Of a stretch of DNA of 64,000 nucleotides, positions 35,714-50,159 are shown piece by piece. A program made the position numbers and the translations under genes. Position 1 is the stretch's first letter. Every line of letters begins with the position of its first letter. The stretch comes from Chloroflexus sp. Y-396-1 (GTDB lineage: Bacteria; Chloroflexota; Chloroflexia; Chloroflexales; Chloroflexaceae), in NCBI RefSeq assembly GCF_000516515.1, contig NZ_KI911784.1:186001-250000 (forward strand), given 5' to 3'. The notes beneath the pieces are model-generated. The model had not been told where the DNA came from. It searched no databases and saw only the letters and a list, made by a program, of their open reading frames with translations.

Positions 35714-36508
35714 ATGACCGTGCCAGCAATCTTCTTCATTATTATTCTCGTTCTGGTCGTTGCACTGATCTGGCTTCATTATGCCCGTGTACAGGCTGGT
35801 CGTGTACCAGAACGACGGCCGTTTCCTGCACTAGAGGTACTGCAAGCAGCACTTGCCCGCAGTGCAGAGACCGGAAGACCGGTTCATCTCTCACCTGGCG
35901 CTAGCACGATTGGGGCTGGTGAAGGACAACGGGCCAGCACTGCTGAGTTGCTGGCCGGCTTGAACGTTATTGGACGAGCAGCCGAACAAGCTGCTGCTGG
36001 CGGGGCTTCTATCGTCGTTAGTTCGGCTGATGCGGTTGCACATCTGGCGTTACGAGGGATGGTACGCCAGTCGTACCGATCGTTTGGGCAGGAGCAGTCG
36101 TTTAATGCGCGTCAGATTGAGCTGTGGGCGCATGGCGATGCGATGGCTTATACGGCTGCTGTGGCAGCCATTTATGATCGAATTCCCTTGGAGGCCAGTT
36201 TACTGGCCGGCGCTTTTGGTCAGGAGGCATTATTAGCTACCGAGACCGGTGTTGAACGTATGCTACCGCAGGTTTTGGGGAGTACTCATCCATCAGCATT
36301 GGGCTTGATGGCAATCACCACTCCCTATATATTGATAGGGGAAGAGATTTACGCTGCTGAAGCATACCTAACTTCTACTTCAATACCCCAGGCTCGTCTG
36401 TTAACCCACGATGCACTACGCACCGTGGTTATCTGGCTAATGCTGATCGCTTTTGGGTATGGTTTCATTCGCATCGCCTTCGGATGGCCTGTCTTAGCGG
36501 GATGGTGA
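35714..36508 (+). CDS. DUF6754-like membrane protein
   Basis: 264 residues. An N-terminal membrane helix (FFIIILVLVVALIWLHYA), a ~210-residue soluble domain, and a C-terminal helix (TVVIWLMLIAFGYGFIRIAFG). The soluble part carries RPVHLSPGASTIGAG, AAGGASIVVSSADAVAHLA and TGVERMLPQVLGSTHPSALGLMAITTPYILIGEEIYAAEAYL, which resembles the DUF6754 family. Function unknown. Stop and next start are 5 bp apart; first of five apparently co-transcribed genes. Confidence 0.75.
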   Translation: MTVPAIFFIIILVLVVALIWLHYARVQAGRVPERRPFPALEVLQAALARSAETGRPVHLSPGASTIGAGEGQRASTAELLAGLNVIGRAAEQAAAGGASIVVSSADAVAHLALRGMVRQSYRSFGQEQSFNARQIELWAHGDAMAYTAAVAAIYDRIPLEASLLAGAFGQEALLATETGVERMLPQVLGSTHPSALGLMAITTPYILIGEEIYAAEAYLTSTSIPQARLLTHDALRTVVIWLMLIAFGYGFIRIAFGWPVLAGW

Positions 36509-42547: not shown

Positions 42548-44572
42548 ATGGCAGACAGTGTGCAGGCGATACTAGCCGTTGAAATCGGTAGTCTGACGAC
42601 CAGAGTCTCGCTGATCGACCAAGTTGATGGTGAAAGTCGACTGATCGGTCAAGCTGAAACCCTAACCAGTCGTGAATTGCCATATCAGAATGTGTTCTTT
42701 GCGATACAGGAAGCAACTGCGCAATTAGCCGACCTTACCGGTCGTCAATTACTGCACGATGGGCGCTTGCTCATTCCACGAACCACTACTGGCGATGGTA
42801 TTGATGCAGTAGTAGTTGTTGCTTCTGCAATCGAACCGTTACGAGTCGTCGTGGCGGCGATTGCCTCTGACGTTTCGGCCCGAAGTGCATTGCATGCCAT
42901 TTGTGGGGTGCCGAATGTCGTGTTAGATGTGGTAACCCTGGATGATGTCTCACATCAACCTAGTCATACGCAGTCATGGATTGAGCGTCAACTTGAGAAG
43001 CTACTCCCACTCTCGCCAGACGTGATCGTCTTGACGGGTGGTATTGAGGGCAGCACCGTTGAGGCAATGAAGCGGCTGGCGCATCTGGTTCGTCTCAAGC
43101 TCTCCTTCACTGAAGCGATTAAACAACCGTTGCCAACAGTTATTTATGCCGGCAATACAGCCGCAGCATCAATCGTTCACACGATCCTTAGTGAACACAA
43201 CTGTGAATTGATAAGCGTAGCTAATGTACGACCCACTCTTAACCAAGAGATCGTAACCCCATTACGACAGGCGTTACTGGCTCGTTATGCAAGACAGTTG
43301 TCCGATTTGCCCGGCTTACATCATTTGGTAGATTCTGAAAAGGGAACGTTGCGCACGATGGTTGAAGCGCAATATGTGATGACGCGCTTCCTGGCTGAGC
43401 GACGAAAACAGCCGGTTTTGTTGGCAGATGTTGGTGCGACAACAACTACGCTGATCGCCGCTGCACCAGATCACGTAAGTGCTGCAATCCATGGGGTTTG
43501 TGGCACTGCATTCGGAGTCAGCAACTTGGTATGCGAAGTTAGCCCTGCAGCAATTGCACGCTGGTTGCCATTTGCGATTGAAGAGCAAGAACTGATCGAA
43601 CGAGTACTTCAGCGGACGTTACGTCCACAAACAATACCGGTAACTCGTGAGGATTGCTACCTTGATCTGGCGATTGTGCGCGAAGCGTTAGCATTGGGAA
43701 TGGCTACATTGCGCGATGAACAACCAGCCCTGACCTATAGCTATCTCGTAGTTAGCGGTGGTGCGCTGATCCATGCCCCCCATCCTGGGATGGCACTCCT
43801 AGCGATCCTCGATGGTTTGCAGCCAGCGTATGAGTTACCGGGTCTGTTGTTACCGATCCATCTCGACAGCCTGGGTCTACTAGCGGTATGTGGCGGAATA
43901 GCAGCACGCAGCGCCGACGCAGCCGTATCGGTTTTTGATCGCGATCTGCTGATGAATACGCCATTAGCAACCTGTATTGTGTTACAGGGCGGCAACCGGT
44001 TTGGCGATCCGATCGCTGAGGTTGAACTGATCACTGTTGGCGGTGGTAGTGAACAAATCCAGGTACGCAATGGCGATTTGCTCCGACTGCCGTTACCAAT
44101 TGGTCGTTATGCGCAGGTAAAGGTGCGACCACGAGCCAGTGTGCGCGTAGGAAAGGCTGCACCTGGTGAGGCGGTTGAGAGCGATCCGGCTGAAGTTCAC
44201 GGCAGCCTGCTTGGCCTAATCATCGATGCACGAGGACGACCACTCACCTTACCAGAGAATGGAGCAGAACGCCGACGACTTCTCTGGTCATGGTTGCGGG
44301 CAGTCGGCGCCGAGCACAGCGATAGTCCGTACCCTGAACCCATAACTGCTTTGCCAGCGATGCCAGAACCAGTGGTATCATCCACGCCAGTTGCGCCCAA
44401 GCAACGGCGAAGCTGGTTTGGACGCCGGAAACAAGTGCCAATACCACCAGAAATGACCTCATCACCAGGGGATACAGCACCAGCAGAAGCGCCCGGCGAC
44501 AATCTCGATGAGCTACGCCAGAAGGTTACTAAATCTGCGCGTCGGAATTGGTTCGGTCGGCGCAAATCGTAA
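42548..44572 (+). CDS. MutL/FtsA-like actin-fold ATPase with twin WFGRRK tails
   Basis: 674 residues from the ATG at 42548 (AAGG 10 nt before; an upstream in-frame TTG at 42512 also exists). Residues ~1-460 match the glutamate mutase MutL family of the ASKHA superfamily: AVEIGSLTTRVSLID (phosphate 1), VLLADVGATTTTLIAA (phosphate 2) and YLVVSGGALIHAPHPG (adenosine). A beta-rich part (~470-590) follows, then a Pro/Ala linker with two copies of a basic aromatic motif, RRSWFGRRKQ (near residue 622) and RRNWFGRRKS at the very C-terminus. It may be a membrane anchor, as in FtsA. No glutamate mutase genes are nearby, so its partner is probably the membrane cluster upstream. Confidence 0.78.
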   Translation: MADSVQAILAVEIGSLTTRVSLIDQVDGESRLIGQAETLTSRELPYQNVFFAIQEATAQLADLTGRQLLHDGRLLIPRTTTGDGIDAVVVVASAIEPLRVVVAAIASDVSARSALHAICGVPNVVLDVVTLDDVSHQPSHTQSWIERQLEKLLPLSPDVIVLTGGIEGSTVEAMKRLAHLVRLKLSFTEAIKQPLPTVIYAGNTAAASIVHTILSEHNCELISVANVRPTLNQEIVTPLRQALLARYARQLSDLPGLHHLVDSEKGTLRTMVEAQYVMTRFLAERRKQPVLLADVGATTTTLIAAAPDHVSAAIHGVCGTAFGVSNLVCEVSPAAIARWLPFAIEEQELIERVLQRTLRPQTIPVTREDCYLDLAIVREALALGMATLRDEQPALTYSYLVVSGGALIHAPHPGMALLAILDGLQPAYELPGLLLPIHLDSLGLLAVCGGIAARSADAAVSVFDRDLLMNTPLATCIVLQGGNRFGDPIAEVELITVGGGSEQIQVRNGDLLRLPLPIGRYAQVKVRPRASVRVGKAAPGEAVESDPAEVHGSLLGLIIDARGRPLTLPENGAERRRLLWSWLRAVGAEHSDSPYPEPITALPAMPEPVVSSTPVAPKQRRSWFGRRKQVPIPPEMTSSPGDTAPAEAPGDNLDELRQKVTKSARRNWFGRRKS

Positions 44573-45264
44573 TAGCGTTGTGTATGAAGACTTTTCTACG
44601 TTATTTTCTGTCCGGTAGAAAAGCGAACAGAGGTAGCGGAATGAGAGGGTTTCACCCTCCTGCGAGCAGGGAACTGAGAGCCTGATCAAAAACCCAGATT
44701 TCTCATTGGGGACGTACCCGTACCCATGTGACCACTGGGTGAGAGGGTGTCAACCTGCTTTCGCTCCAGCCATCCCTCGTTCCCTCTTCCTCTCCCCGTG
44801 TGGAAGAGGAAGGGGGCAAGGGGGAAGGTGAGGGTGCGCTAGGTGTGCTCCGCAGCGCCGGCGCTGAAACCGTTACCACCCGTTTCCATCGCGGCGAGGA
44901 AAGGCCTGCGGTGCCGGCCAACGTTCCCCGAACCATTCTGGAGATTTCATGATCGAGCCTCATCACAAGCCCAGGTTTTTGATGAGGCGCTTCGTTGCTC
45001 GCTACTTCAGCCGACGCCACTGCTGAGCACCACCCCGAGTTTCAGATCATGCTCGAGGGGTGATAGTCGGCTGATGCGCCAACCGATGAGTTCCCGCGAC
45101 AGACCACACAGCACGGACAGGCGACCCACGCTTTGCGAGAAACCGGGTAGATCGGGGAGCGCCGTCAGTACGTACATGTTCATGGTATTGCCCTGTCTAA
45201 GGTTGAGAACACTGAAAAGCCCTTCTATCTGACACCGTACAGCACATATTATCGCTACCTGTGG
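44573..45264. other. 690-bp gene-poor spacer before the arg operon
   Basis: A 9-bp stem, CTTTTCTAC (44591-44599) with GTAGAAAAG (44615-44623), follows the MutL-like gene and may end its transcript. A CT-rich palindrome lies at 44782-44816. A short minus-strand frame (45007-45183, start MNMYVLTALPDLPGF) has no clear support. No other gene seen. Confidence 0.55.
44782..44816. repeat. CT/GA-rich palindrome (dispersed family)
   Basis: CCCTCTTCCTCT pairs with AGAGGAAGGGGG (one wobble) around CCCCGTGTGGA. Same family as 9703-9737 and 52971-52997. Confidence 0.6.
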
Positions 45265-45270
45265 TATACT
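45265..45270 (+). promoter_or_regulatory. Extended -10 promoter of the arginine operon
   Basis: TATACT preceded by TGG in GTGGTATACT, 45 bp upstream of the leader peptide. It matches AGTGGTATAAT before pfkA. The -35 is weak, as expected for an extended -10 promoter. Confidence 0.6.
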
Positions 45271-45309
45271 ACTCTCGTCAATTGCGCAGGCGAGAAGGCG
45301 GTGCTTACG

Positions 45310-45411
45310 ATGTCTGTTATTATCCAACACTGCAATACGTACAGCGGTTTAGCCGTTTGTCACAATCGTCGTCACCGTCGTCATAGTCAGCCGGTCACAC
45401 GATCTGGCTAG
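45310..45411 (+). CDS. Candidate arginine-operon leader peptide (33 codons)
   Basis: ATG at 45310, with an AAGG-type site 10-14 nt upstream, to TAG at 45409-45411. The peptide has the run HNRRHRRHSQ (CGT CGT CAC CGT CGT CAT at 45367-45384), four Arg codons within six and one more Arg later. It lies between the operon promoter and a terminator-like hairpin, which is the layout of ribosome-mediated attenuation. Stalling at the Arg codons would leave CTGGCT (45404-45409) free to pair with GGCCAG (45444-45449) and block the hairpin. When Arg is plentiful the ribosome reaches the stop codon inside that strand and the hairpin forms. Translation and function are inferred. Confidence 0.7.
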   Translation: MSVIIQHCNTYSGLAVCHNRRHRRHSQPVTRSG

Positions 45412-45442
45412 CGGCGCCTGTGCTCTTGTAAGGATTGTTCTC

Positions 45443-45472
45443 AGGCCAGCTTGCCAGCACGCAGGCTGGCCT
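45443..45472 (+). terminator. Attenuator hairpin of the arginine operon
   Basis: AGGCCAGCTTGC (45443-45454) pairs with GCAGGCTGGCCT (45461-45472), 12 bp with one wobble, loop CAGCAC, followed by CTTCTATGT. It stands 36 bp before the first structural gene. Its 5' arm can pair alternatively with CTGGCT at the leader-peptide stop. Confidence 0.75.
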
Positions 45473-45508
45473 CTTCTATGTATCGACCTGTAAGTAGTGA
45501 AGGAACGT

Positions 45509-46207
45509 ATGACCCACTTATACCTGATCCGCCACGGCGAATCGGTCGCCAATGTGAAACCAATTGTAGCCGGAATGAAAGGTGATGCCGGTCTTACCGA
45601 GCGCGGTATCGAGCAGGCCAAGCGTCTGCGTGATCGTCTGGCAACCAGCGGTGAGATCAAAGCCGATGTGCTGATTTCATCAACATTGCCCCGCGCCCGC
45701 CAAACTGCCGAGATTATTCAACCAGCCCTGGGAATTCCAATCATCTTTGATGATGAAGTACAGGAATTGAAGGTCGGTGAAGCCGATGGCATGACAAACC
45801 AGGAGGCATGGGCTAAGTTCGGCGTTCCCGATTTTGACCGTTACCCATTACGACCACTTGCTCCCGGCGGTGAAAGCTGGGGAGACTTCACCCTGCGCGT
45901 CAGTCGTGCCCTTACCCGCATTACCACAGAATACGAAGGAAAAACAATCGTTGTTGTCTGTCATGGCGGCGTGATTGATTGTTCGTTCATCCACTTTTTC
46001 CGAATGCCAAGCCTGGTGGTACCACCGATTGATTTTCATACCCGCAACACCAGTATTACCTGGTGGGAACGGGTACATCGGCGTCATCAACAGCTCTGGC
46101 GGCTCAACGCATATAATGATATTGCTCATCTGCAAGGTATTGGCGTGGTTGAGTCGGTCCGCTGGGAAGACACCCATCCCGCTGCACCGGTACCAACCGA
46201 GGAGTAG
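45509..46207 (+). CDS. Histidine phosphatase (phosphoglycerate mutase-like)
   Basis: 232 residues from the ATG at 45509 (GAAGGA upstream). Catalytic LIRHGES motif near the start (His nucleophile, Arg), a second core SSTLPRARQTAE, Glu in VQELKVGEADGM, and the second His in VVCHGGVIDC. It may be a phosphatase of small metabolites (phosphoserine, sugar phosphate or alpha-ribazole phosphate); the substrate is not evident. First gene of the arginine operon, 6 bp before argJ. Confidence 0.9.
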   Translation: MTHLYLIRHGESVANVKPIVAGMKGDAGLTERGIEQAKRLRDRLATSGEIKADVLISSTLPRARQTAEIIQPALGIPIIFDDEVQELKVGEADGMTNQEAWAKFGVPDFDRYPLRPLAPGGESWGDFTLRVSRALTRITTEYEGKTIVVVCHGGVIDCSFIHFFRMPSLVVPPIDFHTRNTSITWWERVHRRHQQLWRLNAYNDIAHLQGIGVVESVRWEDTHPAAPVPTEE

Positions 46208-46213
46208 GAACGT

Positions 46214-47431
46214 ATGATGACATTTCTTGCTGACGGCCACGCCACCAGCCCACAAGGCTGGCGCGCCGCAGTAGCGGCCTGCGGGATTAAATATGCCAAT
46301 CGTGATGATCTGGCCCTACTGGTCAGCGACTATCCGGCGACAGCAGCCGCTGTGTTTACCACCAACGCAGTGAAAGCCGCACCGGTACGCTACGATATGG
46401 CGCTTATGGCACAAGGTACCGCTCTGCGGGCAGTTGTGATCAACGCCGGTAATGCCAATGCCTGTACTGGCGCCGATGGCGATGCTGCGGCTGTTGCAAT
46501 GGCCCAGGCCGTCGAACAGACGTTGGGCCTCCCACCACATAGCACATTTGTTATGTCAACTGGAACAATCGGTGTCCCCATGCCGATAGAGAAGATTGTG
46601 CGCGGGATCGCGGTTGCGGCCCAGCGGCTAAGTCCTGAGCACGGACTGGCTGCGGCACGTGCCATCATGACAACCGATACCCGACCAAAACATTGCGCCG
46701 TGACTGTGACTCTTTCTGGTGGTCACGTCATTACCATTGGAGGGATGGCCAAAGGTGCTGGGATGATCCATCCCAATATGGCAACCATGCTGGCCGTTGT
46801 CACCACTGATGCGACCGTACCACGGCCAGTCCTCGATCAGGCGATGCGGCAGGCGCTAGAGGTGAGTTTCAACAGCATCAGTATTGACGGCGATACCAGT
46901 ACGAACGATACGTTGCTCGTCATGGCGAACGGAGCGAGTAATGCACCGCCAATTACCGATCTCGATACTCCCGACGGTGCTGCTTTTTGTGCCGGTCTGA
47001 CTGCGGTTTGTCAACACCTAGCCCATGCCATTGTTCGTGATGGTGAAGGAGCAACCCGTTTTGTCACAATTACGGTGCGTGGGGCAGTCAACGATGCCGA
47101 AGCTAAACTGGCAGCAATGACAATTGCTCGTTCGCCTCTGGTGAAGACGGCGTTGTTTGGCGCTGATCCCAATTGGGGACGAGTATTGTGCGCAATAGGT
47201 TATTCAGGGGCCACCGTTGATCCTGATCGAGTCGTGCTCTCGTTTGGTGGTATGCGGGTGTTGGAAAACGGTTTACCGTTACCATTCGACGAGCAGGCTG
47301 CCCACCAGTTGCTCGATGTGGCCGAGATTACGATCGATGCCGATCTCGGCCTTGGCGAGGGGAAGGCAACGGTGTGGACGTGTGATTTTAGCTACGACTA
47401 CGTGCGGATCAATGCTGAATACCGCACCTGA
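46214..47431 (+). CDS. argJ: Bifunctional ornithine acetyltransferase / N-acetylglutamate synthase ArgJ
   Basis: 405 residues. The autocleavage site is visible in GMAKGAGMIHPNMATMLAVV: cleavage before the Thr of MAT-ML gives the N-terminal nucleophile. Other motifs: NAGNANACTGADGD near residue 75 and SISIDGDTSTNDT near 225. Transfers the acetyl group of N-acetylornithine to glutamate and, in the bifunctional form, can use acetyl-CoA. The operon also carries a separate acetyltransferase (49638). Two adjacent ATGs; the first is used here. Confidence 0.96.
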   Translation: MMTFLADGHATSPQGWRAAVAACGIKYANRDDLALLVSDYPATAAAVFTTNAVKAAPVRYDMALMAQGTALRAVVINAGNANACTGADGDAAAVAMAQAVEQTLGLPPHSTFVMSTGTIGVPMPIEKIVRGIAVAAQRLSPEHGLAAARAIMTTDTRPKHCAVTVTLSGGHVITIGGMAKGAGMIHPNMATMLAVVTTDATVPRPVLDQAMRQALEVSFNSISIDGDTSTNDTLLVMANGASNAPPITDLDTPDGAAFCAGLTAVCQHLAHAIVRDGEGATRFVTITVRGAVNDAEAKLAAMTIARSPLVKTALFGADPNWGRVLCAIGYSGATVDPDRVVLSFGGMRVLENGLPLPFDEQAAHQLLDVAEITIDADLGLGEGKATVWTCDFSYDYVRINAEYRT

Positions 47432-47446
47432 CGCCGGGGCAAGATC

Positions 47447-48190
47447 ATGGATCTCGCTGACCGCCAATCAATTACGCGTGAACTGTGTCAGCGCCTTGCC
47501 ACAGTAGCGGACGTTGCCATTGTGGTGGCAGGGATGGTAGCGCCTGCGGCGCCGCCCACCGATTTTGATCCGCTTGAGCTGTTGGTCATCACCGAGCGAG
47601 TGAGGCAACGTCCAATGCACAGTTTCATGATGCGAGGTATACCGGTAACGATCAATACTATCGCCTTACCTGATTTAGAAGTGATCTTGCAAGTACCTGA
47701 TCTGCGCTGGCCACAATGGTTGAGCTGGCTGGCACAGGTACAACCTATAGTTGGGACGGCTGAACAGGTACAGGACTGGTTATCACGAGCCAGGGCGTTA
47801 CCAGAACGTGCCTTTTACCAGAGCATCATTCCGTATCTGCCGCAATTGGTATTTCGGCGCTACAGTGAATTACGGGCAGCTACCGTGCGGCGTCAGGCTT
47901 CGGTGGCAAGGTTGCTGGTATCTGAATTATTGATGGAAATGATCAGCGCACTCTGTTTGATCAACCGTTGTTGGCTAACACAGCATCGATATGCTGGCCT
48001 GAACGAAAGTTTTTCTTTCCCGTTACAACCGCGTGATTGGCCGCAACTGGCTACTGCTCTGATCGCAGCTCAAGAGCTTGATGAGATCGGACGGCTGGCA
48101 GGCACGCTGATCGGGAATTACTGGCAACTCCTGGTACGTTGTAGCCTACAGGTCGAAAACCACCAAACGATTGCCAGTGCACCACTGTGA
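47447..48190 (+). CDS. Nucleotidyltransferase-like protein of unknown role in the arg operon
   Basis: 247 residues. The first ~90 residues resemble a degenerate nucleotidyltransferase fold (VAIVVAGMV..., DFDPLELLVIT as a remnant of the D-x-D strand). The C-terminal ~150 residues are helical, HEPN-like in size (SELLMEMISALCLINRCW, AQELDEIGRLAGTLIGNYW). The usual GS motif is missing, so catalysis is doubtful. It lies 15 bp after argJ and 21 bp before argH, so it is surely transcribed with them. Function not known; a regulatory role would be speculation. Confidence 0.6.
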   Translation: MDLADRQSITRELCQRLATVADVAIVVAGMVAPAAPPTDFDPLELLVITERVRQRPMHSFMMRGIPVTINTIALPDLEVILQVPDLRWPQWLSWLAQVQPIVGTAEQVQDWLSRARALPERAFYQSIIPYLPQLVFRRYSELRAATVRRQASVARLLVSELLMEMISALCLINRCWLTQHRYAGLNESFSFPLQPRDWPQLATALIAAQELDEIGRLAGTLIGNYWQLLVRCSLQVENHQTIASAPL

Positions 48191-48211
48191 TACGAAAGAG
48201 GAGGATTGTCG

Positions 48212-49597
48212 ATGGAACACCGGCTCTGGGGAGGACGGTTTAGCGAACCTACGGCGGCAGAGATGCGCCGCTTCAACGACTCATTCCATTTTGACGTGCG
48301 TCTGGCCGAGGTTGATATTGCCGGTAGCATTGCCTGGGCCGGTGCACTGGCACAAGCTGGTCTCATCAACGAGACCGAACACGCTGATCTTGTCCGTGGT
48401 TTAGAACAGGTGCGAGCCGAATTCGCAAACGGTACATTCGTGGCCGCAGAAGGTGATGAGGACATTCACACCGCTGTCGAACGTCGGTTGCGTGAACTGA
48501 TTGGCGATGCGGCGCTTAAGCTTCATACCGGGCGTTCGCGTAACGATCAAGTCGCTACCGATATGCGTCTCTACACCATCGGGATTGCCCGTCAGCTTAA
48601 CCACCGTTTGCGTGATCTGCAACTAGCGCTCTTGTCGCAAGCCGAACAGCATACTGCGACGGTTATGCCAGGCTATACCCATTTGCAGCGCGCCCAACCG
48701 ATCACGTTCGGGCATTGGTGCCTGGCTTATGTTGAGATGTTTGCCCGTGATCGGAGCCGACTTGAGAATGCGACTCGTCGCATGCGTGTGCTCCCGCTCG
48801 GCGCAGGCGCTCTGGCCGGCAATTCGCTTGGAATCGAACGTGAGCGGCTTACCGAATTACTCGATGAATTTGATGAATTAGCGGCAAACTCGCTTGATGC
48901 TGTCAGTGATCGGGATTTCGTTGCCGAAATCCTCTTCGATTGTGCTCTAATCGGTGTCCATCTCAGTCGGTTGGCCGAAGATATTATTCTCTATGCCAGC
49001 GCCGAATTTGGCTTTCTCGAACTGGCCGATGCCTACAGTACAGGCTCAAGTCTGATGCCACAAAAGAAAAATCCCGATAGTATGGAGTTGTTACGCGGTA
49101 AGAGTGGTCGCCTGTTGGGAAACCTCGTAGCATTGCTTACGGTATTGAAGGGATTGCCGCTGACCTACAACAAAGACATGCAAGAAGACAAGGAACCACT
49201 CTTCGATAGCTTTGATACACTCGATCTAGGGCTACAAATAGCAGCAGCGGCCATTGCGACAATGAAGGTGAAACCCGAACGAATGGCAGCAGCCCTCGAT
49301 GATGCGATGCTAGCTACCGATCTGGCCGATGAACTGGTACGTCGAGGCATTCCATTTCGGCTGGCGCATAGCAAGGTAGGACGATTGGTGCAGCGGGCAT
49401 TGGCACTCGGCGTAAGCTTGCGCCACTTGCCACTCTCTGAGTATCAGGCCATCGAACCTACTCTCGATGCGAGTATCTACGCGGTATTCGACATGGCGCG
49501 TAGTGTAGCCCAAAAATCGAGTTACGGCGGCACCGCCCCCCAGCGAGTACGTGAGCAATGCGCACGCTGGCGCGAATTGTTAATGCAGAACGATTGA
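48212..49597 (+). CDS. argH: Argininosuccinate lyase
   Basis: 461 residues from the ATG at 48212 (GAGGAG upstream). N-terminal LWGGRFSEPTA, HTGRSRNDQVATDMRLY, TVMPGYTHLQRAQPITFGHW and the signature loop GSSLMPQKKNPDSMELLRGK with the catalytic Ser. Cleaves argininosuccinate to arginine and fumarate. Third enzyme gene of the operon. Confidence 0.97.
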   Translation: MEHRLWGGRFSEPTAAEMRRFNDSFHFDVRLAEVDIAGSIAWAGALAQAGLINETEHADLVRGLEQVRAEFANGTFVAAEGDEDIHTAVERRLRELIGDAALKLHTGRSRNDQVATDMRLYTIGIARQLNHRLRDLQLALLSQAEQHTATVMPGYTHLQRAQPITFGHWCLAYVEMFARDRSRLENATRRMRVLPLGAGALAGNSLGIERERLTELLDEFDELAANSLDAVSDRDFVAEILFDCALIGVHLSRLAEDIILYASAEFGFLELADAYSTGSSLMPQKKNPDSMELLRGKSGRLLGNLVALLTVLKGLPLTYNKDMQEDKEPLFDSFDTLDLGLQIAAAAIATMKVKPERMAAALDDAMLATDLADELVRRGIPFRLAHSKVGRLVQRALALGVSLRHLPLSEYQAIEPTLDASIYAVFDMARSVAQKSSYGGTAPQRVREQCARWRELLMQND

Positions 49598-49637: not shown

Positions 49638-50159
49638 ATGACTAGCCCATTGTACGCACCTCCGGTAAGTTTACCGGTCCTTCACATCCGACCTGACGCT
49701 GCGGTTACCATTCGCCGGGCGCGGGTCAGCGATGTCCCACGGCTATACGAAATTATCAACTACTACGCAGCACGTGGCGATATGCTTCCTAAGACGCTCG
49801 ATCAGCTCTACAATCGAGTGCGTAATTTTAACGTGGCCGAGGCCGATGGTGAAGTGATCGGTTGTGCCGCCTTGCACATTACCTGGGCCGACCTGGCCGA
49901 GGTGGTCAGTGTTGCAGTCCATCCGTCGTTCCAAGGTCGTGGCATTGGTCGAAAATTGATCGAACCACTCTTCACCGAAGCAATGGAACTAGGTATTCCT
50001 ACACTCTTTACACTTACCTTACAGGTTGGTTTTTTCAGCGCGCTGGGATTCCGCGAGATCCCCAAGTTACGGCTACCGCACAAAATCTGGCAAGATTGCG
50101 CCACGTGCTTTAAGCAGGATCGCTGCGATGAAGTAGCGATGATTCGGCAGTTGCCGTAG
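49638..50159 (+). CDS. GNAT N-acetylglutamate synthase-like acetyltransferase
   Basis: 173 residues. Acetyl-CoA loop HPSFQGRGIGRKLIEPLF, upstream strand AEVVSVAVH, and the C-terminal signature KIWQDCATCFKQDRCDEVAM, which marks the short ArgA-like class (Cys-rich KIWxDC...CDE). This supports a role as N-acetylglutamate synthase, feeding the first step of arginine synthesis. A ~25-residue N-terminal extension precedes VTIRRARVSDV. Last gene of the operon; argJ could make the step partly redundant. Confidence 0.85.
   Translation: MTSPLYAPPVSLPVLHIRPDAAVTIRRARVSDVPRLYEIINYYAARGDMLPKTLDQLYNRVRNFNVAEADGEVIGCAALHITWADLAEVVSVAVHPSFQGRGIGRKLIEPLFTEAMELGIPTLFTLTLQVGFFSALGFREIPKLRLPHKIWQDCATCFKQDRCDEVAMIRQLP

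Follow-up and report, generated by a model that had tools for sequence, protein, structure and literature searches.

The ribosome-mediated attenuators trp, his, leu, thr, ilv and phe are best known in proteobacteria, and the amino-acid attenuators, although textbook biology, are documented for the most part from a small number of phyla and amino acids. In its classical form, an attenuator consists of a leader peptide with sensor codons, the pairings 1:2, 2:3 and 3:4, a terminator, and a biosynthetic operon for the amino acid that is sensed. The element that we describe here, located in a 64,000-nucleotide stretch of the genome of Chloroflexus sp. Y-396-1 (hereafter “the window”, C1:186001-250000 of a single-contig genome of 4.89 Mb), has this same anatomy of leader, pairings, terminator and operon; in contrast to the classical attenuators, the elements of the Chloroflexota would sense arginine and lysine, and they are without an Rfam match.

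According to passages of a survey of amino-acid attenuators (PMC3766115), the His, Leu, Thr and Trp attenuators are available in Rfam, while those of Ile/Val and Phe have also been characterised; the same passages suggest a gamma-proteobacterial origin for these systems, and place five Chloroflexi genomes among those surveyed with the four Rfam attenuators. Consecutive Arg codons, as in the Chloroflexus leader, are found in orf34, the leader ORF of speF in Salmonella, where ribosome pausing alters the folding of the RNA; orf34 serves the control of ornithine decarboxylase, through Rho-dependent termination together with a masked ribosome-binding site and decay by RNase G (PMC6386406), whereas the Chloroflexus leader has an intrinsic-type hairpin and precedes arginine synthesis genes. 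The His-leader attenuators of Firmicutes, a comparative discovery, are an example of leader peptide, terminator and antiterminator outside the proteobacteria (PMC9413887); these leaders concern histidine, and the word “arginine” occurs 0 times in the main text of that article. The open-licence PMC literature, covered mostly at the level of abstracts and with most subscription papers outside its scope, has yielded no report of an arginine attenuator upstream of the genes for arginine synthesis in bacteria, and none of a leader peptide in Chloroflexus. We take the mechanism to be of a known kind, and its arginine specificity, the phylum in which it occurs and the exchangeable sensor on one scaffold to be new.

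The leader in the window and the genes that follow it

The element spans positions 45262-45482, where an extended -10, a leader ORF and a 12-bp terminator hairpin are followed by the arg gene set (Table 1). This arrangement, a 33-codon ORF between an extended -10 promoter and a 12-bp hairpin before a set with argJ and argH, had been pointed out in a preliminary description made from the letters of the sequence, and is confirmed by our reading of the sequence and by the models TIGR00120 and TIGR00838. The leader peptide reads MSVIIQHCNTYSGLAVCHNRRHRRHSQPVTRSG, with four CGT Arg codons within its run; transcription would start at about position 45277, and the best -35 in the window is poor, with 3/6 matches.

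Table 1. Positions of the features of the leader element, of the genes downstream of it and of related leaders elsewhere (positions are those of the window, unless a genome is named).
Feature	Position	Strand	Remarks
Extended -10 promoter element TGG-TATACT	45262..45270	+	Read from the sequence
Leader peptide ORF, 33 codons + TAG	45310..45411	+	ATG 45310, TAG 45409-45411
Sensor codons CGT CGT CAC CGT CGT (Arg Arg His Arg Arg)	45367..45381	+	
Segment 1, AGCCGG	45389..45394	+	Pairs with 45404-45409 (1:2, pause/protector hairpin)
Segment 2, CTGGCTAGCGGCGCCTG	45404..45420	+	Overlaps leader stop; antiterminator 5' side; folds and covariation
Segment 3, CAGGCCAGCTTGCCAG	45442..45457	+	Partner of segment 2 (antiterminator) or segment 4 (terminator)
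Terminator hairpin 3:4, 12 bp, 6-nt loop	45443..45472	+	Fold, covariation
T-rich terminator tail	45473..45480	+	Weak in the window; TTTTTT in several relatives
First gene, histidine-phosphatase superfamily (phosphoglycerate-mutase-like)	45509..46207	+	PF00300, E 2e-42
argJ	46214..47431	+	PF01960, TIGR00120 (above cut-off)
Protein of no recognised family, between argJ and argH	47447..48190	+	
argH	48206..49597	+	TIGR00838, 585.7 bits against a cut-off of 279.5
GNAT acetyltransferase, N-acetylglutamate-synthase-like	49638..50159	+	NF005840 (N-acetyltransferase) above cut-off
Lys-codon leader MRNVTFSAKQNKHAKKPDERSG (L111)	G000:C1:3055700-3055786	-	Before homocitrate synthase, genome of the window
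Gln-/Lys-rich leaders, LysE-type			L134, L135, L138, L212, L217, L219, L220, L231; L147, L201-L205
Pro-containing leaders (such as NPNPSP...RSG)			L222, L226-L230, L232, L234, L235

As a putative intrinsic terminator with a U tract, the hairpin has a strong stem, followed by a tail that is weak in the window and good in several relatives. Between positions 44000 and 50500 we have found 6 terminator-like sites, against 6.1 expected from shuffling, and the fold z-scores of the element (-1.98 and -1.75) belong to energies that are not exceptional; the window alone would not prove much, and it is conservation, as a comparison of sequences, that makes the element secure. The scaffold model R2, a sensor-free model trained on both arg and lys elements (39 sites, that of the window included), matches positions 45387-45482 at E 9.6e-14, while elsewhere in the window it gives just three matches at E 10 or below, all on the minus strand (E 0.038, 0.51 and 0.51). 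A minus-strand match of R2 at 35866-35962 was inspected and rejected, there being no leader at that place. The families of Rfam 15, with its known leaders, T-boxes and riboswitches, have 0 matches at the gathering score across the window and likewise 0 in five loci with related elements; for 45200-45520 there are 0 even at a limit of E 5.

Concerning the genes downstream, the GNAT protein is matched by the amino-acid N-acetyltransferase models only below their cut-offs, and the protein encoded between argJ and argH has no Pfam match at E 1 and no NCBIfam match at 0.001. The His-phosphatase-family gene stays beside argJ in many Chloroflexales, as an unexplained partner in the arg operon; the family-less protein of the argJ/argH interval is a second such partner.

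Conservation of the arginine leader

In all eight genomes of the genus, as well as in a genome of another genus (G013), the promoter, the leader ORF and the hairpin are located directly before the His-phosphatase gene, and the leader frame and stop position are the same in the 8/8 genus genomes. A relative of ArgJ occurs in 30 of 31 genomes, the window's own included; the reading of 19 loci has revealed nine with the leader and ten without it at that place, where argG sits instead. Before argG, the leader was read in 11 of 30 argG loci; in the genus, argG is located at another place and is of a different sequence type, so that the leader has kept its place in front of whichever gene comes first in the operon: it precedes argG where argG heads the operon, and the His-phosphatase gene otherwise. 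What the nine aligned leaders have in common is the run of Arg codons, the stop position, segment 2 and the hairpin, while the N-terminal part of the peptide varies. Among 56 named loci (taken from 80), 14 carry the element, with 0 of the 5 Roseiflexus and Herpetosiphon loci among them.

The covariance model R1, built from an alignment of 20 arg elements, was searched against 82 Chloroflexales genomes, where we have found the arg element at E 1e-9 or better in 36 (two elements in G002); one lys element (G030) scores as well in R1 as the arg elements at this threshold. Two further arg elements, both before argG, occur in G053 (4e-8) and in G039 (1e-4; L139, matched by R1 alone and missed by R2). 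The total thus comes to 38 of the 82 genomes, distributed over the families as 33/41 (f1, the window's own), 4/6 (f2), 1/9 (f3) and 0/26 (f4); in 8 of the 41 own-family genomes the model search has not found the arg leader. In 37 of the 38 the element is followed by argG or by the His-phosphatase gene (in G049 the contig ends), and argJ follows the His-phosphatase gene in all 13 genomes where that gene comes first. Outside the order, a weak match in G425 (R1 E 0.005, R2 E 1.4e-5) has Arg-Ser-Arg-Arg and precedes argC. R2 has a match in 67 of the 82 genomes of the order at E 0.05 and in 54 of 400 genomes of the phylum at E 0.02, the latter being a sample searched with strict filters, so that little weight falls on a missing match there. 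The element is nearly palindromic, and its echoes on the reverse strand were taken out ahead of the counts, which brought 152 matches down to 129. Eight matches that are coding sequence or chance-like (L140, L142, L143, L149, L221, L223, L233 and L236) were rejected and are not counted, and L218 and L224 stand as doubtful cases.

The sensor residues were counted over ten codons, at positions -16 to -7 from the stop. Left out of these counts are L122 and L132 (before argG) and L215 (before homocitrate synthase), for which the script gave no leader at the expected stop, likewise L141 and L225 (LysE-type), and those whose downstream gene was not recognised (L100, L218, L221, L223, L224, L233, L236 and the first copy in L127); one arg site (G002) is counted twice among the 36 arg rows, and two lys sites (G068 and G060) among the 56 lys rows. 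The 36 arg rows, from 35 distinct sites, contain 3-7 Arg and 0-1 Lys residues each, so that the conservation of the leader ORF and of its Arg codons, on which the preliminary description had staked its proposal, is borne out. The sensor that it had called Arg/His-rich holds in its Arg part, whereas His occurs in just 15 of the 36 rows: the three His codons are a peculiarity of the genome of the window, the run being mainly Arg in the other seven leaders of the genus, and we have replaced the label “Arg/His” with “Arg”.

Of the 167 Arg codons in the arg sensors (36 rows), 119 are CGT, while seven genes of the window use it for 50 of 177; one codon is favoured, as if a single tRNA were read. At L127 (G002:C607:5745-5864), a second, nearly identical arg element is located 1.8 kb before the first and precedes an unrelated membrane-protein-like ORF; it is either a real duplication or an effect of the assembly.

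The promoter counts are flattered by the script that was used, which took the best-scoring -10 and gave points for TGn and for a -35. With this limit, a -10 is found in 34 of the 36 arg rows, preceded by TGn in 34/34, while 46 of the 50 lys rows with a -10 have TGn; a -35 with at least 4/6 matches occurs in 24/34 arg rows and 48/50 lys rows, nearly all at a spacing of 17. All 34 arg rows with a -10 have an in-frame start codon, which is ATG in 29. In 4 arg rows (L051, L052, L066 and L133) and 11 lys rows (L111 and L151-L154 among them), no more than about 5 nt separate the start codon from the inferred start of transcription; these are possibly leaderless leader peptides.

Lysine and other sensor codons on the same scaffold

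In many of the genomes with an arg element, R1, built from arg elements alone, gave a match at a second site as well; these matches often start only at position 29, i.e. without the Arg run. These second elements have Lys-codon leaders, for example ...KQVKRSKKPDVWSG, located before a homocitrate synthase gene (TIGR02146 above cut-off) or a gene of the homoaconitase family, the downstream identities having been tested in one of each kind. The lys rows (n=56) contain 0-2 Arg and 2-4 Lys residues, except for one row that is cut by the contig start and has 0 and 0; where the leaders are readable whole, the Arg and Lys sensors do not overlap. By our tally, a Lys-type element is present in 53 of the 82 genomes, before homocitrate synthase in 39 and before homoaconitase in 14; within these 53, the leader is unreadable to its stop in two, the frame is uncertain in G016 (L206), and in G060, G065 and G027 the lys gene starts 450-610 nt downstream of the element. 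Leader-peptide attenuation of the homocitrate-synthase lysine cluster of Thermus thermophilus was reportedly described by Tsubouchi et al. in 2005; among the known systems, this leader would stand closest to the Lys elements, and it lowers the novelty of the lysine side.

Weaker relatives of the scaffold are located before LysE-type transporter genes (PF01810 in 3 of 3 tested). Eight such leaders are Gln-rich by script, with 2-5 Gln residues, six of them in family f43 outside the order and two inside, and a ninth (L141) was read by eye; in genus g15, the leaders before LysE-type transporters are five Lys and one Gln. In family f13, nine leaders have two or three Pro codons at E values of 0.003-0.015, so that their case is one of a repeated pattern and not of score; two precede proS (TIGR00408), where a tRNA synthetase would be under attenuation through the amino acid that it charges, and seven precede MazG-like and LOG-type genes (one tested). 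At L210 (G060:C9:17907-18006), a scaffold-like match (E 1.1e-6) is located before a gltX-like gene and has no clear run of Glu codons. As read from these sequences, the elements look like a single attenuator scaffold with exchangeable sensor codons.

Competing pairings and the reading of the element

The preliminary description had proposed that CTGGCT, at the leader stop (45404-45409), can pair with the 5' side of the hairpin, as the alternative fold of an arginine-operon attenuator; these letters can indeed pair there, but the antiterminator is longer than CTGGCT alone. The 2:3 antiterminator, counted on an alignment that was fitted to a model without it, has 90.2% of cells paired across 36 distinct arg elements (0/500 shuffles as high), with double changes in 5 of 12 pairs (reached by 7/500 shuffles) and in 13 cells (0/500); controls with a slid 2:3 pairing have at most 52% of cells paired and at most 5 double-change cells, yet one of them (+3) also has 5 such pairs. 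The 1:2 and 3:4 pairings, counted on an alignment that was fitted to them, together have 92.2% of cells paired, with double changes in 6 of 18 pairs (1/500 shuffles) and in 21 cells (0/500); for 1:2 by itself the values are 92.1% in 36 distinct sequences and 2 of 6 pairs. Here the slid controls reach 51% paired and 14 cells, but 6 (-1) and 7 (+3) double-change pairs against 6, so that the pair count alone does not discriminate. The clearest change in the antiterminator is at column pair 63-93 (C-G to U-G to U-A), while one 2:3 pair fails in 12 of the 36 sequences; counts on 19 distinct sequences agree with those on 36. Since related sequences can exceed shuffles, these figures are support and not probabilities. 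Each of the three predicted competing pairings (1:2, 2:3 and 3:4) shows compensatory changes, and the putative antiterminator and terminator, which are mutually exclusive, both covary among the relatives; together with the conserved Arg codons, this supports the attenuator that had been proposed.

We have also modelled the ribosome on the leader, removing the RNA that it covers, and calculated the fraction of the terminator 5' arm that is held upstream before segment 4 exists, with the stall codon fixed at -9 from the stop for all rows. The mean fraction held in the arg rows (n=36) is 0.72 with the ribosome stalled, 0.26 with the ribosome at the stop and 0.41 with segment 2 shuffled, while in the lys rows (n=53) it is 0.73, 0.41 and 0.44, respectively. 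One of the 36 arg rows (L092) is an exception, with 0.28 sequestered when stalled, and in L088, L104 and L083 a ribosome at the stop still leaves 0.62-0.73 sequestered. The run in the window has its last Arg at -10, which makes this case slightly less favourable than the modelled one; compared with most relatives, the distance from the end of the run to segment 1 is greater by two codons, so that a stalled ribosome would cover segment 1 only partly. The minimum-energy folds of five species, with the upstream part masked, have the terminator or a 2:4 pairing in the full-length RNA, so that 2:3 must win by forming first. Without a ribosome, the RNA of these five up to segment 3 forms 2:3 and not 1:2, and 4/5 keep 2:3 at full length; an untranslated leader is, thus, not predicted to terminate as in the classical models.

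From the parts of the element, their conservation, the compensatory changes in three pairings and the match between sensor codon and downstream pathway, the element is very probably a ribosome-mediated attenuator of transcription, with charged arginine tRNA as the signal that it senses, for which we infer that the leader is translated, that stalling at the Arg codons drives the choice of fold and that termination actually occurs. A ribosome would trail the RNA polymerase through the leader. With sufficient Arg-tRNA, it would reach the stop codon and cover segments 1 and 2, whereupon 3:4 would form and transcription would stop at about position 45478; with Arg-tRNA in short supply, it would wait on the CGT run, and segment 2, being free, would capture the emerging segment 3, so that no terminator would form and transcription would read through into the arg genes.

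In an alternative reading, the ribosome is stalled by the nascent basic chain, or by arginine in the ribosome tunnel, instead of by uncharged tRNA. Arg or Lys runs slow ribosomes, both main kinds of sensor are basic, and conservation is good at the end of the peptide, in the ...P..(R)SG or (R)PG that precedes the stop; however, this last conservation is explained by segments 1 and 2 pairing in the RNA, the peptides vary in their N-terminal parts, the residue tracks the pathway (with Arg in arg leaders and Lys in lys leaders), and the scaffold seems to occur with Gln and Pro as well, which makes such an arrest peptide very unlikely. That the element is a constitutive terminator or an RNA-stability hairpin, with the Arg-rich frame as a by-product of CGT-rich sequence, would suit the weak single-genome statistics, but is hardly credible next to a promoter, an ORF, a stop position and three competing pairings that are kept across many genomes, and next to the same frame carrying Lys codons where lys genes follow. 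Equally improbable is a translational switch that hides the ribosome-binding site of the first gene and does not stop transcription: the hairpin does end 36 nt before the start codon of that gene, but AAGGA at 45500-45504 stays free of the hairpin, and a T run directly follows the stem in several relatives.

Regarding control by ArgR, a search for the N-terminal domain of this protein (PF01316) gave matches in 0 of 21 genomes, against 9 of 14 controls, while its C-terminal domain (PF02863) was found in 0 of the 8 genus genomes and in 8 of the 14 controls. Returning to the proposed attenuator sensing arginine tRNA, we consider it rather probable that one ancestral attenuator has spread by duplication and exchange of sensor codons, keeping its promoter type, stop position and antiterminator, and that across the Chloroflexota it acts on the synthesis of arginine and, in the alpha-aminoadipate route, of lysine, on LysE-type transporters (with Gln or Lys codons) and on prolyl-tRNA synthetase (Pro), replacing the missing ArgR in the Chloroflexales.

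An arginine attenuator where ArgR was not found would explain how arginine synthesis is controlled in these phototrophs and their relatives. An RNA scaffold that is kept while its sensor codons change would be a natural experiment, separating codon sensing from effects of the peptide, and the change of sensor on one scaffold suggests how attenuators may get re-targeted in evolution.
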